Under the pieces are notes generated by a model. The model was not told where the DNA came from and ran no database searches. It was given only the letters and a program-made list of their open reading frames with translations. The position numbers and the translations under genes were made by a program. Positions 4,408-49,937 of a DNA stretch of 64,000 nucleotides are shown piece after piece (positions within the stretch are counted from its first letter, which is position 1; every line of letters starts with the position of its first letter). The stretch comes from Collinsella tanakaei. GTDB taxonomy: Bacteria; Actinomycetota; Coriobacteriia; Coriobacteriales; Coriobacteriaceae. The stretch covers positions 186,001-250,000 of the forward strand of contig NZ_JACJKB010000002.1 of NCBI RefSeq assembly GCF_016900375.1, read 5' to 3'.

Positions 4408-4446
4408 GCGGGGGAGCGGTACCTGACAGCCGCCCCCCGCTTTTTT
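4408..4446 (+). terminator. Rho-independent terminator of mtlA
   Basis: GCGGGGG-A-GCGG pairs with CCGC-C-CCCCGC across an 8-nt loop and is followed by six T residues (4441-4446), 55 nt after the mtlA stop. Confidence 0.9.
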
Positions 4447-4448
4447 AC

Positions 4449-4518
4449 TGGCACCTCCCGGCTACGTCCCCAATGAGGCCATTGTTGGCCTCATTGGGGA
4501 CGTAGCCGGGAGGTGCCA
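4449..4518. repeat. Family A palindrome, copy A1
   Basis: A perfect inverted repeat with 33-nt arms (4449-4481 and 4486-4518) around a 4-nt loop. The arm core is TCATTGGGGACGTAGCCGGG. Five more loci in this window carry the same GGGGACGTAGCC unit (5164, 10076, 12648, 42870 half, 43129 and 44484). It starts directly after the mtlA terminator. Confidence 0.95.
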
Positions 4519-4535
4519 CTTGTTGGGACTCCGCG

Positions 4536-4572
4536 AATGTCCTGAAACATCTCCGTCCTGAAAGTGGACATT
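4536..4572. repeat. Family C repeat, copy C1
   Basis: AATGTCC ... GGACATT encloses the conserved sequence ACATCTCCGTCCTGAAAGTG. Copies lie at 10217, 12813, 42931 and 43255, always close to a family A palindrome. It sits just upstream of the flavodoxin-like gene and could affect its leader. Confidence 0.85.
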
Positions 4573-4620
4573 TGGGTATAGAGGTGGGTGTTGAGACATC
4601 CCACGCGAAAGGTGGAGGCT

Positions 4621-5157
4621 ATGGCGTACGCAATCGTATACAACAGCAAGGGCGGCAACACCAAGATGGTGGCCAAGGTGCTTCAGCAGGCGCTCACCGG
4701 CGCCGGTGTCGAGGCGACGCTCACCGAGGTGACCCCCGATACCGTGCAAGCAGCCGCGCAGGCGGCGCGGGACGCCGAGGCGGTGCTCGCAGGCTTCTGG
4801 TGCGACAAGGGTTCCTGCACGCCCGAGATGGCAGACTTTTTGGCGGGCCTGGCGGGCACCCGCGTCTTCCTCTTCGGCACCGCCGGTTTCGGCGGCGAGC
4901 CGGCCTACTTCGCCCGCATTCTCGAATCGGTCCGAGCCAAGCTCCCCGAGGCCGCCGACTACCTGGGCGGCGCCATGTGCCAGGGCAAGATGGGTCCCGC
5001 CGTGCGCCAGCGCTACGAAGCCATGCTCGCCGAAAAGCCCGACGACCCCCGCATCCAATCCATGATCGCCAACTTCGACGCCGCCTCGACCCACCCCAAC
5101 GCCGTCGACCTAGAAGCGATCACCACCGCCGCCAAACAATCCCTCAACCTCCAGTAA
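4621..5157 (+). CDS. Flavodoxin-like protein
   Basis: A 178-residue soluble protein. Its N-terminus YAIVYNSKGGNTKMVAKVL is the phosphate-binding strand-loop-helix of the flavodoxin fold (S/T-x-x-GNT), which binds FMN. The middle has a Cys-containing segment, GFWCDKGSCTPEM, and FLFGTAGFGG, as in the flavodoxin family often annotated as Flavodoxin_3 in anaerobes. The likely role is low-potential electron transfer in the cytoplasm. I chose the ATG at 4621 because GGTGGAGG lies just upstream and the flavodoxin strand begins at residue 2. It appears monocistronic, between two family A palindromes. The redox partner is unknown. Confidence 0.75.
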   Translation: MAYAIVYNSKGGNTKMVAKVLQQALTGAGVEATLTEVTPDTVQAAAQAARDAEAVLAGFWCDKGSCTPEMADFLAGLAGTRVFLFGTAGFGGEPAYFARILESVRAKLPEAADYLGGAMCQGKMGPAVRQRYEAMLAEKPDDPRIQSMIANFDAASTHPNAVDLEAITTAAKQSLNLQ

Positions 5158-5163
5158 CCGCCC

Positions 5164-5235
5164 GTGGCCTCATTGGGGACGTAGCCGGGAGAGGCCAGAA
5201 ATGGCCTCTCCCGGCTACGTCCCCAATGAGGCCAC
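5164..5235. repeat. Family A palindrome, copy A2
   Basis: A perfect inverted repeat, arms 5164-5197 and 5202-5235 (34 nt each), loop GAAA. It begins 7 nt after the flavodoxin-like stop codon, so the RNA hairpin could stabilise or end that transcript, although no T-run follows. Confidence 0.95.
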
Positions 5236-10057: not shown

Positions 10058-10075
10058 TCCAACCCCGCGGCGGCC

Positions 10076-10201
10076 TGGCCTCTCTGGGGACGTAGCCGGA
10101 AGGTGAAATTTAGGGGACAGGTCCCAAACTTGCAGGCGGGCGGGGAGCTTCCAAGCTCCCCGCCCGCCTGCAAGTTTGGGACCTGTCCCCTAAATTTCAC
10201 C
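10076..10201. repeat. Composite repeat: half family A plus family B palindrome
   Basis: The left half of a family A unit (10076-10103) runs into a perfect family B palindrome with 49-nt arms (10102-10150 and 10153-10201) and a 2-nt loop. The family B arm contains GGGGACAGGTCCCAAACTTG. The right half of family A is missing, unlike the complete copy at 12648. This fills the first part of a 463-nt gene-free gap. Confidence 0.95.
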
Positions 10202-10216
10202 TCAGCTGGCCGCGGG

Positions 10217-12563: not shown

Positions 12564-12647
12564 GATGTTCGATTCTCCTTGTTGTATACGACGATACTTG
12601 GCAACCAATTATCGTAGCGAATCTGCATAAGGGCAAGCATCCGCATG

Positions 12648-12803
12648 CCTGGCCTCTCTGGGGACGTAGCCGGGAGGTGAAATTTAGGGGACAGGTCCCA
12701 AACTTGCAGGCAGACGGGGAGCTTTCAAGTTCCCCGTCCGCCTGCAAGTTTGGGACCTGTCCCCTAAATTTCACCTCCCGGCTACGTCCCCAGAGAGGCC
12801 AGG
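12648..12803. repeat. Complete composite palindrome, family A enclosing family B
   Basis: A 156-bp palindrome whose outer arms are family A (GGGGACGTAGCCGGGAGG) and whose inner arms are family B (GGGGACAGGTCCCAAACTTG). The two halves match almost completely over about 75 nt, with a few differences near the centre. It fills most of the 294-nt gap between the RlmKL and kup genes. Confidence 0.95.
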
Positions 12804-12812
12804 CCGCGGCGG

Positions 12813-22647: not shown

Positions 22648-22814
22648 TTGGATGAAATGGCGACTTTTGTACCGCTGTGGGCGGCGCTGGCGGGACGATA
22701 GGGGCTCTAGGCTATGACGTTTTAGCCGTTTTGCGCGAAATGGCCGCTTTTTGGGGATTGGTCTGCAGGCAGGACGGAGGGCCTGCGGGTACAAAAGTGG
22801 CAATTCTAGCCAGA
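22648..22814. repeat. Family E inverted-repeat element, copy E1
   Basis: A 167-bp element. The left end, TTGGATGAAATGGCGACTTT followed by TGTACC, is partly inverted at the right end (GGTACAAAAGTGGCAATTCT). The interior contains GTTTTAGCCGTTTTGCGCG. It is one of three copies sharing these ends (others at 35822 and 37519). It lies in a 641-nt gene-free gap; 22501-22647 shows nothing else. Confidence 0.8.
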
Positions 22815-22892: not shown

Positions 22893-23031
22893 TAACTTGA
22901 GCATTGTTTGAGGGACCGTCGGGCGCTGTTCGGCGGTCTGAGAAAGTGTTGTTATGGCCGCATTGCGCGAATTGTCCGCTATTTTGGCTTGTTTCAGAGC
23001 AAATTACCTAAGGTAAACAGTGCTCAAGTTA
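22893..23031. repeat. Inverted-repeat element E4
   Basis: A 139-bp element with 17-nt terminal inverted repeats, TAACTTGAGCATTGTTT (22893-22909) and its inverse (23015-23031), one mismatch. Its interior, ATGGCCGCATTGCGCGAA, resembles the interior of E1. It lies downstream of the menA-like gene and fills the rest of the gap. Confidence 0.75.
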
Positions 23032-27310: not shown

Positions 27311-27512
27311 TAAAGTTAGTTCAGATATGCGTAACCCGAGCAAAACGGTCGGGTTTCGTTTTGGCCGTTTTGAGCCACACAGGACGCCAGCTAGGCAAGA
27401 AGCTGAGCCCGGATTAATACAAAACATAACATCAGCGTCTAAGCCGCGCGTCCAGCCCATCGAAAATCAACCCATAAAATCAGTGTACTTACGCATATCT
27501 GAACTAACTTTA
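27311..27512. repeat. Inverted-repeat element E5 with perfect ends
   Basis: A 202-bp element with perfect 24-nt terminal inverted repeats (27311-27334 and 27489-27512, containing GTTAGTTCAGATATGCG). The interior is AT-richer than the neighbourhood and carries GTTTTGGCCGTTTTGAGCC near the left end. It has no coding potential that I can see. It lies in the 549-nt gap between the divergent DUF1385 and epimerase genes; the rest of that gap holds only the epimerase leader. Confidence 0.85.
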
Positions 27513-28653: not shown

Positions 28654-28936
28654 TCGCGTTCCCGCACGCTGGGCAACGCTTCCGCAGGCCCATCGAGATC
28701 TGCCTGCACCTCGATGCCGCACGAGAGCTGTTTTGGCATACCGTTTGCTGCGATTATTCGGTTACATGCGTGTTTCGTCGGCTTTCACTCTAGCCTTTCG
28801 TATACGCGCGCGGTATGCTGCCAGCTTGTACGCGTAACTTTCTCGCATTAAGTTGCAAGGGGGAGGGGAATGGGTCCCCTCCGGTTGCGCCGTACGGAAG
28901 GGGTCATACACAAAACTTTTTGGAAGGGAAACCATC

Positions 28937-35821: not shown

Positions 35822-35997
35822 TTGGATGAAATCGCCACTTTTGTACCGCTGGATGCAGGGTGTAGGGGCTGTATAAGGCAAATAAAGTTGCCAAATCATA
35901 CATAGCTGACAAAACGGACTTACCGATAGATCCTTTTTGGCCTATGAGAAAGACCCGTTCGTACCCTGCCGGGTACAAAAGTGGCGATTTCATCCAA
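35822..35997. repeat. Family E inverted-repeat element, copy E2 (perfect ends)
   Basis: A 176-bp element with perfect 26-nt terminal inverted repeats (35822-35847 and 35972-35997; the left one begins TTGGATGAAATCGCCACTTT). The interior is AT-richer than the genome and contains CAAAACGGACTTACC. It lies 184 bp beyond the 3' end of the nuclease-like gene; copy E3 lies beyond that gene's 5' end. The remaining 35998-36181 shows nothing I recognise. Confidence 0.9.
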
Positions 35998-36181
35998 ACA
36001 GGGGGTTATTTACTCTCGAATGATTGTCCTACGGCTAGTTTTTACAGCGCGCCGGCAAAGCCGAGCCTGGTGGGTCACCCGCATATGCGTTCAATTTCTA
36101 AAAACAAGGTACAAGTTCCAGACGCAAACGCCCCGCGTGAATGCAATGTAGGGCGCCTCTTCTTCGCGCCATGCTCAACGG

Positions 36182-37357
36182 CTACACCGGCGGCATGCCT
36201 ACAGCTTTTCTCAAATCGTTGAGCAGCCTGTCTTGTAGTTTGCGATACTCTTTGACCTGGTAGCGATACCTGACTCCCGCGAACCTGTGTATCGTTTCGG
36301 CAATGGCTTCGAGTGCCGTTATGCTTGCCATTTGCTTCCTGTCGATCACGATAACGCGCACTCCCATTCCCTGAAGTCCGTTGTTGCGATTGGCATCGTG
36401 TATGCGCGAATTAACCAGTTCATGCCCGATGCCGTTGTACTCGATGTCGGATTTTGCCGCCGGGATGTATAGGTCACAGTCCGCATATGGCATGCCGTCG
36501 GCCATGGCTACCGCGTTGTCGTTGAAGTCGAGGCGAAAGTTGAGCAGCACTCCCTGGGGAAGCGCCGCGCAATTGAATCCACCGTATCGATGCGGGAGGC
36601 CGAACATGCCGTACTGAACCGATTCGGCCGGGGAGCGCGATCCCTCCGCCGCATAGCGAACGGCGCGTCGGAACGTTTCATCAATCCCTCTAGTCGTCCA
36701 AGCGGCAAGCGCTTCGAGTTCTTCGAGCGTCGTCGCCGCTTCACAACCGTTATGGATTTGATCGACAACAGCTGCGACTATCTTGGTCTCTCGAGTCTGC
36801 GAATCAGCAAGCACGTCTTCGTCCGATATATGTGGTGGGTCATCGTCTTCTGACTTTCCCTCGGTCTGTTGTTCTGAGCTTGTATCGCTGCCGTCTAGGT
36901 TGGGCCATGTTTTGCCATTCTCGAGGGGAAATGTCGCCTCCGGCGGAAGCGTGTAGGCGCCTAGCAGCTCCATAATCAGCATGAACGTCTGCGCAAACGT
37001 ATGGCTGCGCGCGTAGAGCAGCGCCGTGAACGCAGGCGAGGTGCAGCATATATCTGGCTCGATCTGCATGAGTGCATGATGCGGGAGCGTACCAGAGAAG
37101 ACCGTGCAACGAATGCCTCCCTTGTTCCTGCGGTGCGAGGCATCGGCCACGAGGACCCATAGGTCGCCATCGTCGGCTTCCTCATAAAACCCTTTGCGAG
37201 ACAAAGAGGCAAAGTCAATCTGGCTCTGGTTGGGCAGGCAGCGCCTGAAAGCCTCTTCCTGTTGTTGATCACCGAGTGGGTGCCATGTCAGGGCAGAATA
37301 CGACCGTCGTGCGGCTCGGATGCCGCGGACGGAAGATATGCCAGTAATAATAATCAT
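36182..37357 (-). CDS. Predicted PD-(D/E)XK (Vsr/DUF559-like) protein flanked by family E elements
   Basis: A 391-residue protein of unknown function. The C-terminal third reads ADCDLYIPAAKSDIEYNGIG, then HELVNSRIHDANRNNGLQGM and GVRVIVIDRKQM. An Asp, then E-x-N/D-G, a His, and an R-(H)-D-x-x-R-N-N helix match the Vsr/DUF559-type endonuclease fold. The N-terminal 160 residues contain CCTSPAFTALLYARSHT and MELLGAYTLPPE. From memory, proteins of this layout are numerous in Coriobacteriia; that is unverified. The base composition is clearly lower in GC than neighbours. The ATG at 37357 has no ribosome binding site, and an imperfect inverted repeat covers it. Other options include an abortive-infection or AbiEi-like regulator. 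Confidence 0.6.
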   Translation of the reverse strand: MIIITGISSVRGIRAARRSYSALTWHPLGDQQQEEAFRRCLPNQSQIDFASLSRKGFYEEADDGDLWVLVADASHRRNKGGIRCTVFSGTLPHHALMQIEPDICCTSPAFTALLYARSHTFAQTFMLIMELLGAYTLPPEATFPLENGKTWPNLDGSDTSSEQQTEGKSEDDDPPHISDEDVLADSQTRETKIVAAVVDQIHNGCEAATTLEELEALAAWTTRGIDETFRRAVRYAAEGSRSPAESVQYGMFGLPHRYGGFNCAALPQGVLLNFRLDFNDNAVAMADGMPYADCDLYIPAAKSDIEYNGIGHELVNSRIHDANRNNGLQGMGVRVIVIDRKQMASITALEAIAETIHRFAGVRYRYQVKEYRKLQDRLLNDLRKAVGMPPV

Positions 37358-37406
37358 ACAAATGATAATAACATCCGGACATTAATAAAGTATGTGAAAA
37401 CATACT
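37345..37406 (-). promoter_or_regulatory. AT-rich control region of the nuclease-like gene
   Basis: Two inverted repeats sit here: AGTATGT/ACATACT (37389-37395 and 37400-37406, perfect) and TAATAATAATCAT/ATGATAATAA around the start codon (8 of 10 match in the inner arms). With the lack of a ribosome binding site this suggests tight or leaderless control. Promoter boxes are not clear. Confidence 0.4.
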
Positions 37407-37518
37407 AAATGATACAAGGCGACAAAGAATCACTTCATGATGGTTCATGATTCGTCAGAGGTCACTCTCCTGTACCCGTCGCTCCTTTTTGGGTTTGAAG
37501 GCAGTGGCTTGAGAGGCG

Positions 37519-37724
37519 TGGATGGAATTGCGACTTTTGTACCGCAGAGCCCTGCTGTCCGCGGTTCCATTCCGATGTTCGAAGGCCACAGGCTACGCGC
37601 GATGTCCTGCTTCTGTGGCAGAACTGACGTTTTGACCGCTTTGGGCAGATGAATTGACGGGCGTGTCGAAGCGTCTCTGACCTAGGTGAGGTAATTCGGG
37701 TACATAACTCACGATTTCATCCAA
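37519..37724. repeat. Family E inverted-repeat element, copy E3
   Basis: A 206-bp element. The left end TGGATGGAATTGCGACTTTT and the right end (37699-37724, ending ACGATTTCATCCAA) are diverged copies of the E2 ends. The interior holds GTTTTGACCGCTTTGGGC. It lies in a 491-nt gap between the nuclease-like gene and yqeY; the rest of that gap holds no recognisable structure. Confidence 0.8.
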
Positions 37725-43100: not shown

Positions 43101-43128
43101 AGATGCCCGGAACGTGCGCGCGCAGCGG

Positions 43129-43240
43129 GCTGGCCTCTCTGGGGACGTAGCCGGGAGGCGCCACGCCGGGGGTCCCAGGCAGCAGCTTCACCGCGGTGGC
43201 CGGCTTGGCGCCTCCCGGCTACGTCCCCAGAGAGGCCAGC
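43129..43240. repeat. Family A palindrome, copy A5, with a 42-nt loop
   Basis: Arms 43129-43163 and 43206-43240 are perfect over 35 nt and include GGGGACGTAGCCGGGAGG. The loop is long (42 nt) and GC-rich, unlike the 4-nt loops of A1, A2 and A6. Confidence 0.95.
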
Positions 43241-43254
43241 CGGCTTGCGTCGCC

Positions 43255-44483: not shown

Positions 44484-44555
44484 CTGGCCCCTGTGGGGAC
44501 GTAGCCGGGAGAGGCCATTTTTGGCCTCCCCCGGCTACGTCCCCACAGAGGCCAG
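44484..44555. repeat. Family A palindrome, copy A6
   Basis: Arms 44484-44517 and 44522-44555, few mismatches, core TGTGGGGACGTAGCCGGG. A smaller inverted repeat, ATGACAGT/ACTGTCAT (44450-44478), lies beside it. Confidence 0.92.
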
Positions 44556-44560
44556 CCGCA

Positions 44561-49837: not shown

Positions 49838-49937
49838 GGGGACAGGTCCCAAACTTTCACACAAGGCCCTGCGCACAGCGCGCAGGGCCTTTTTATATAT
49901 GTCCTATTTATATGCATGAAAGTTCGGGGCCTGTCCC
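49838..49937. repeat. Family B repeat enclosing a terminator; overlaps the citG stop
   Basis: The left arm has GGGGACAGGTCCCAAACTTT (from 49838), and the right arm (49917-49937) is its inverse with a few changes. Between them AAGGCCCTGCGC (49863-49874) pairs with GCGCAGGGCCTT (49880-49891) and ends in TTTTT, a typical terminator for citDEF1. The right arm runs into the citG stop codon at 49937-49939. Confidence 0.88.

Follow-up and report, generated by a model that had tools for sequence, protein, structure and literature searches.

A Vsr-like nuclease gene and its cognate inverted-repeat units in Collinsella tanakaei: a candidate REPIN/RAYT-like enzyme-repeat system

RESULTS

A nuclease-like gene between two inverted-repeat units

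The window analyzed here is a stretch of 64,000 nucleotides from a Collinsella tanakaei contig (NZ_JACJKB010000002.1), and coordinates given without a genome or locus label refer to it. Its block at 35822-37724 contains an open reading frame for a nuclease-like protein bracketed by two units of one inverted-repeat family, E2 and E3 (Table 1). An initial annotation had described this layout, and its elements were all recovered: the open frame, E2 with its perfect inverted ends (0 such matches are expected by chance), E3 with diverged versions of the same ends, and a further copy, E1, that stands without the gene, the genome total being about 15 units rather than three. The 1.9-kb block has a GC content of 53.4%, compared with 63.4% and 62.4% in its flanks and 63.9% in the whole window, which places it in the lowest 0.1% among windows of the same size. 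No Shine-Dalgarno-like sequence was found before the ATG of the gene, again as annotated, and of the inverted repeats reported around its promoter and start, one perfect copy is present in the presumed promoter.

In 29 related genomes examined, the genes for a PPIC foldase and GatB/YqeY adjoin with little between them and the block is absent; the block is therefore extra in the window's genome. The nuclease-like gene is alone between PPIC and GatB/YqeY in the window, and no adjacent AbiEii (DUF1814) toxin gene was found.

Table 1 Features of the block at 35822-37724 and related inverted-repeat units in the window
Feature	Position	Strand	Remarks
Nuclease-like gene, 391 aa	36182-37357	-	Open frame; AbiEi-like N-terminal domain (suggestive), linker, Vsr/EDxHD-type nuclease domain
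N-terminal domain, residues 1-156	36890-37357	-	AbiEi antitoxin is the top structural match; in relatives this part varies together with the unit ends
Vsr-like nuclease core, residues 240-362	36272-36640	-	Invariant residues in homologs
Unit E2, 176 bp	35822-35997		3' side of gene; perfect 26-nt inverted ends at 35822-35847 and 35972-35997
Unit E3, 207 bp	37518-37724		5' side of gene; diverged ends, 4 mismatches each to E consensus
Perfect inverted repeat, 7-bp arms	37389-37406		AGTATGT gaaa ACATACT; upstream of start codon, possible operator
Unit E1, 166 bp	22648-22813		Solo copy; inner motif begins 74 bp from one end
Family F unit	22893-23031		Ends TAACTTGAGCAYTGTTT; 80 bp from E1, inner motif in common with E1
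Other-family unit	27311-27512		Ends TAAAGTTAGTTCAGATATGCGTAA / TTAGTTCAGATATG..., resembling the ends found with the nuclease module in C. aerofaciens

The window also contains repeats of other kinds. Palindromic repeats with AAATTTAGGGGACAGGTCCC lie at 10065-10203, 12647-12812, and 49840-49936 and resemble RAYT-type REP elements, and another dispersed family is made of long perfect or near-perfect palindromes around TGGCCTCATTGGGGACGTAGCCGGGAGG (4445-5235, 43124-43245, and 44484-44557). A Corio-PBP RNA (RF02945), scoring well over its gathering threshold, lies at 28828-28901.

Domains of the encoded protein

The AlphaFold2 model of the 391-amino-acid protein is good (mean pLDDT, 85.7). By structure, the C-terminal domain matches the EDxHD homing endonuclease I-Bth0305I (Z score, 8.6), NGO0050 (8.3), and Vsr (7.5), and by profile it matches I-Bth0305I (E value, 5e-4), so the annotation's guess of a Vsr/DUF559-type fold was right; DUF559 matches are weak across the homologs. 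Residues D295, E306, H312, D321, and R324 are invariant in 21 homologs, including paralogs that are only 20-27% identical, and the predicted nuclease active site therefore looks intact.

The N-terminal 136 residues align with AbiEi (6y8q residues 68-168) with a Z score of 5.9 over 91 residues, the next match scoring 3.2. AbiEi was ranked first by VIA-align only, with a middling Z score, and Foldseek searches with this domain alone returned nothing; the likeness to AbiEi is suggestive, not secure. The part of AbiEi that it resembles is the C-terminal, antitoxicity domain, not the winged helix, and no winged-helix domain was matched in the protein. Searches of Pfam, NCBIfam, and PADLOC with the single protein found no significant family, and Pfam gave no match to a Y1 transposase. 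The suggestion that the gene might belong to a defense or toxin-antitoxin system is partly upheld, through the AbiEi-like domain only.

Family E units share ends but not interiors

Ends of family E occur 22 times in the genome (at most 2 mismatches in a 19-nt core), all in units of 155-229 bp, and 15 distinct units were recovered, about 13 of them beyond E2 and E3. The ends are conserved, with 9 of the 26 positions identical across all 30 ends. The interiors are unrelated among copies, their alignment scores equaling the shuffled background, except for a short inner motif built of 9-bp repeats (TTGNCCGNT). The motif is enriched in E units (23 versus 2 expected), and most of the units of 165 or 166 bp have it beginning 74 bp from one end. 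No transposase lies between E ends at any occurrence in the genome. E1 and the neighboring family F unit are in a stretch missing from a close relative; a sister of the family F unit is found at G000:C2:24144-24278. No gene cognate to the unit at 27311-27512 was found in the window's genome.

Unit lengths are in phase with the DNA helix

The lengths of the E units are 155, 165, 165, 166 (three units), 175, 176, 185, 197, 199, 206, 207, 207, and 229 bp. At a period of 10.5 bp these values give a Rayleigh R of 0.88, and 0 of 20,000 random sets were as high (p < 5e-5). The corresponding family of another Collinsella genome (G035), which is independent of E, comprises 11 paired units whose ends hardly vary and whose lengths are 163, 174, 175, 184, 184, 185, 197, 205, 206, 206, and 206 bp (R = 0.91, p = 1e-4 at 10.5 bp). 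Similarly, the ten units of family X1 (TTTCAACTTTTGGGCACTTC; loci L217-L235) in the Enorma massiliensis genome G060 are only 132-133 or 144 bp long. The phasing signal survives the collapse of identical lengths.

A hairpin is not the explanation, because single-stranded interiors fold no better than shuffled sequence (z about 0 and -0.6). No fold was obtained for the E end itself, and only weak ones for the other ends examined (-0.2 to -2.8 kcal/mol). An RNA explanation of the units was rejected, given the unfolded interiors and the absence of any Rfam match to the units. Phasing of length on duplex DNA argues that a unit's two ends work jointly from the same face of the helix.

Homologs are flanked by cognate units

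Homologs of the gene are present in 66 of 67 Coriobacteriaceae genomes, mostly as several diverged paralogs in each. The initial annotation had asked whether E ends flank such homologs elsewhere, and they do not: E ends occur in 0 of the 66 other genomes. The homologs are bounded by units with ends of their own, a signal that appeared only when their surroundings were scanned for paired inverted arms of any sequence. Such units consist of two inverted ends of 20-28 bp and span 130-230 bp as a whole. They flank most homologs, in many cases with matching ends on either side, and the ends vary from gene to gene; paired units are rare at control loci. Among the 13 paralogs from the window's genome and E. 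massiliensis, which are all of those found there, 10 have a unit within 400 bp and 3 have none nearby, compared with 8.8% of random placements (p = 6e-9). At the named loci (30, many of them close relatives), units were present upstream in 20/28, downstream in 22/28, and on both sides in 15/28.

In the sampled parts of the window's genome and of E. massiliensis, solo units with the ends of the gene flanks are also present at distant sites. One G060 family (GGCTCGAGTCGGAAGG) was found blind and was then seen on both sides of a paralog located afterward, as predicted. Distances between proteins and distances between their ends correlate (Mantel r = 0.65, p = 2e-4). For X1, the commonest family in the E. 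massiliensis sample, no nuclease could be assigned among the six paralogs found. A phage or plasmid origin was considered and rejected, with no relatives found in viral contigs or phages; in the plasmid set, one Collinsella record of 900 kb, possibly chromosomal, contained a relative.

Two module alleles in the Collinsella aerofaciens complex

The unit-gene-unit module has two alleles in the C. aerofaciens complex, the ACG and TTTG types, whose ends are ...CAGATACGTAT and ...CAGATTTGTAT. Positions fixed differently in the two alleles run from the outer tip of the upstream unit to near that of the downstream unit, and none lie beyond. A grouping of the three TTTG-type genomes is fully supported by either unit and by the N-terminal coding half, and at 0.98 by the C-terminal half; it is absent in the flanks. 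Genomes G011 and G031 are almost identical outside the module, over 450 bp to the left and 1 kb to the right, whereas inside it their units and N-terminal halves are 15-50% different. The left edge of this cassette falls no more than about 6 bp from the unit tip and the right edge about 65 bp outside the tip; an independent pair, G040 and G036, has the left edge in common with G011 and G031. Nearly identical flanks around a divergent module point to cassette exchange, or to divergent alleles kept while their flanks were homogenized, since recombination that homogenizes the flanks up to a divergent balanced allele could also produce sharp edges.

All 28 fixed residues specific to end type lie within the first 177 of the protein, and the nuclease half has 0 (Fisher p = 2e-5); variation within each type is present in both halves. 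Because every residue separating the types is in the N-terminal half, the N-terminal domain is most simply taken as the part that recognizes the ends. The ends themselves change little: in a solo unit that is orthologous in seven genomes they are almost invariant, and the interior diverges faster than the flanking DNA. In G026, the solo unit at locus C has switched at both ends to the TTTG type, along with the hypF unit and both flanks of the gene. Ends and gene do not keep strictly in step, however, as single dispersed units in G011, G040, and G015 carry the other end type than the gene.

Units come and go between relatives

Among the mapped units of G035, 14 of the 15 E units have no counterpart. 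One E unit of 207 bp in the window's genome (L119:1318-1524) lies in frame within a variable linker of hypF, and at the same place in G035 the linker contains a unit with G035-type ends. Several members of the C. aerofaciens complex have an in-frame hypF unit and others have none, so units are evidently gained and lost, and a coding frame can tolerate them. The linker is possibly an insertion hot spot; the position common to G000 and G035 could go back to a single ancestral unit whose ends later changed, or units could have inserted more than once into a linker that tolerates them.

In two pairs of filled and empty sites, no clean target duplication was visible and the junctions were imprecise. 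The unrelated interiors within one genome are not what simple copying and pasting of a master element would give. With no target duplication seen and no shared interiors, cut-and-paste or copy-and-paste transposition of the DDE type is a poor fit, and homing-like, repair-driven exchange is a better one. The mobility proposed in the initial annotation is thus supported by the empty sites, the turnover of positions, and the cassette exchange, and the nuclease may take part in it.

DISCUSSION

A proposed enzyme-repeat system

The block is probably one module of an enzyme-repeat system that resembles REPIN/RAYT and has a Vsr-like nuclease as its enzyme. We give about an even chance to a further reading in which such modules form a new mobile or domesticated class, with a Vsr-fold nuclease, a recognition domain derived from AbiEi, and no known transposase, that synapses ends on the same face of the helix. 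Under the same reading, and with equal reserve, the nuclease would drive the spread, exchange, and concerted evolution of the units, and the N-terminal domain would set an end code specific to each paralog. As we picture the mechanism, the N-terminal domain would recognize and bind a unit end, and proteins at the two ends would meet across a DNA loop, for which both ends would have to be on the same helical face. The nuclease domain would then nick or cut at or near the unit tips, which are often TGGA or TGGC, and host repair would move or copy the unit or the whole unit-gene-unit cassette. Solo units would be nonautonomous partners that the enzyme, or else some host function, maintains, as with REPINs and their RAYTs. 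The initial annotation had interpreted the locus as a mobile element and its derivative; the idea that the nuclease gene and the inverted-repeat element belong to one mobile system is supported, in a more general form than it had proposed, but an origin of the solo units by deletion from a nuclease-bearing element is not.

The main rival, which we disfavor and consider unlikely, makes the protein a looping regulator, that is, an AbiEi-like autoregulator that binds its flanking units together with a dispersed regulon of operator pairs, the units being regulatory sites of the host and mobility being incidental. Antitoxins of the AbiEi family are DNA-bending proteins that recognize paired 23-bp inverted repeats by binding them (PMC7319586), and conserved ends, free interiors, and helical phasing would all be expected of looping operator pairs. 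The N-terminal resemblance to AbiEi counts for this explanation, yet it concerns the antitoxicity domain in place of the winged helix, and the invariance of the nuclease residues across the family counts against it. Promoters would not be expected between convergent genes, the setting of about 3 of the 15 E units, or inside hypF, which has one, and positions turn over between species while modules are swapped as cassettes.

A second explanation, very unlikely in our judgment, is that the gene is a free-standing EDxHD homing endonuclease, so that the exchange is homing into the allelic site and the dispersed units represent degenerate sites of landing or recognition. The closest solved structure is indeed that of I-Bth0305I, and nearly identical strains exchange the cassette at a fixed locus. 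A homing gene, however, is normally found without intact target sites beside it. Here two intact cognate units flank the gene, and the solo units are complete, phased pairs, not single target sites. It is extremely unlikely that the units are miniature inverted-repeat transposable elements (MITEs) of an unrelated transposase, among which the nuclease genes settled by chance or as cargo: inverted ends, empty sites, and clustering in intergenic space are MITE-like, but each nuclease has its own end family recurring in the same genome, at the association with units reported above, E units show unrelated interiors and no transposase between their ends, and no target duplication was seen.

Comparison with known systems

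REPINs are doublets of REP sequences associated with REP-associated tyrosine transposases, or RAYTs (PMC3116915, PMC2817692). In both systems, conserved inverted ends with a spacer are dispersed as doublets, different flavors of ends accompany different copies of the enzyme gene, and the enzyme gene is not multiplied along with the units. The layout is like that of REPIN/RAYT and not that of MITEs or insertion sequences, because each flank of the gene is a complete unit and the interiors are unrelated. In contrast to the Y1/HUH transposase of RAYTs, the enzyme here combines a Vsr/EDxHD-type nuclease with an AbiEi-like domain. REP ends are palindromic and the doublet forms a hairpin, whereas the ends and interiors described here barely fold or do not fold at all, and the units are phased and 130-230 bp long, compared with 71 bp between the end 16-mers in the GI REPINs of SBW25 (PMC3116915). 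Because the enzyme, the structure of the ends, and the spacing rule differ, the system appears to work like REPIN/RAYT without being a member of it.

The C-terminal domain has the fold and the conserved D/E/H/D residues of I-Bth0305I and Vsr. Unlike EDxHD homing endonucleases, the gene is not in an intron and is flanked by its own recognition-like units, and it differs from both those enzymes and Vsr in belonging to an expanded family of paralogs with another N-terminal domain. AbiEi, to which that domain shows its resemblance, also acts on paired inverted repeats, but here no toxin gene is adjacent, no winged helix was matched, and the domain is fused to a nuclease. MITEs and insertion sequences have in common with these units the inverted ends and the empty sites in relatives; they differ in that the units have phased lengths and no shared interiors or DDE transposase, with no target duplication seen. 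No description of such a system in Coriobacteriia was found in the literature, which for a search of open-license papers is weak evidence of absence. In Collinsella and its relatives, the system appears to be a selfish or domesticated DNA element of a kind not described before.

If this interpretation is correct, REPIN-like dispersed repeats linked to an enzyme arose at least two times with unrelated enzymes, and the strategy would be a general one. The 10.5-bp phasing of unit lengths in wild genomes would be a direct readout of synapsis geometry, and the series of paralogs with matching sites of 20-28 bp would serve to work out a recognition code. With the ACG/TTTG allele pair and 28 candidate specificity residues in one domain, recognition is directly testable. 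The system would also account for many of the species-specific repeats in an abundant gut genus.
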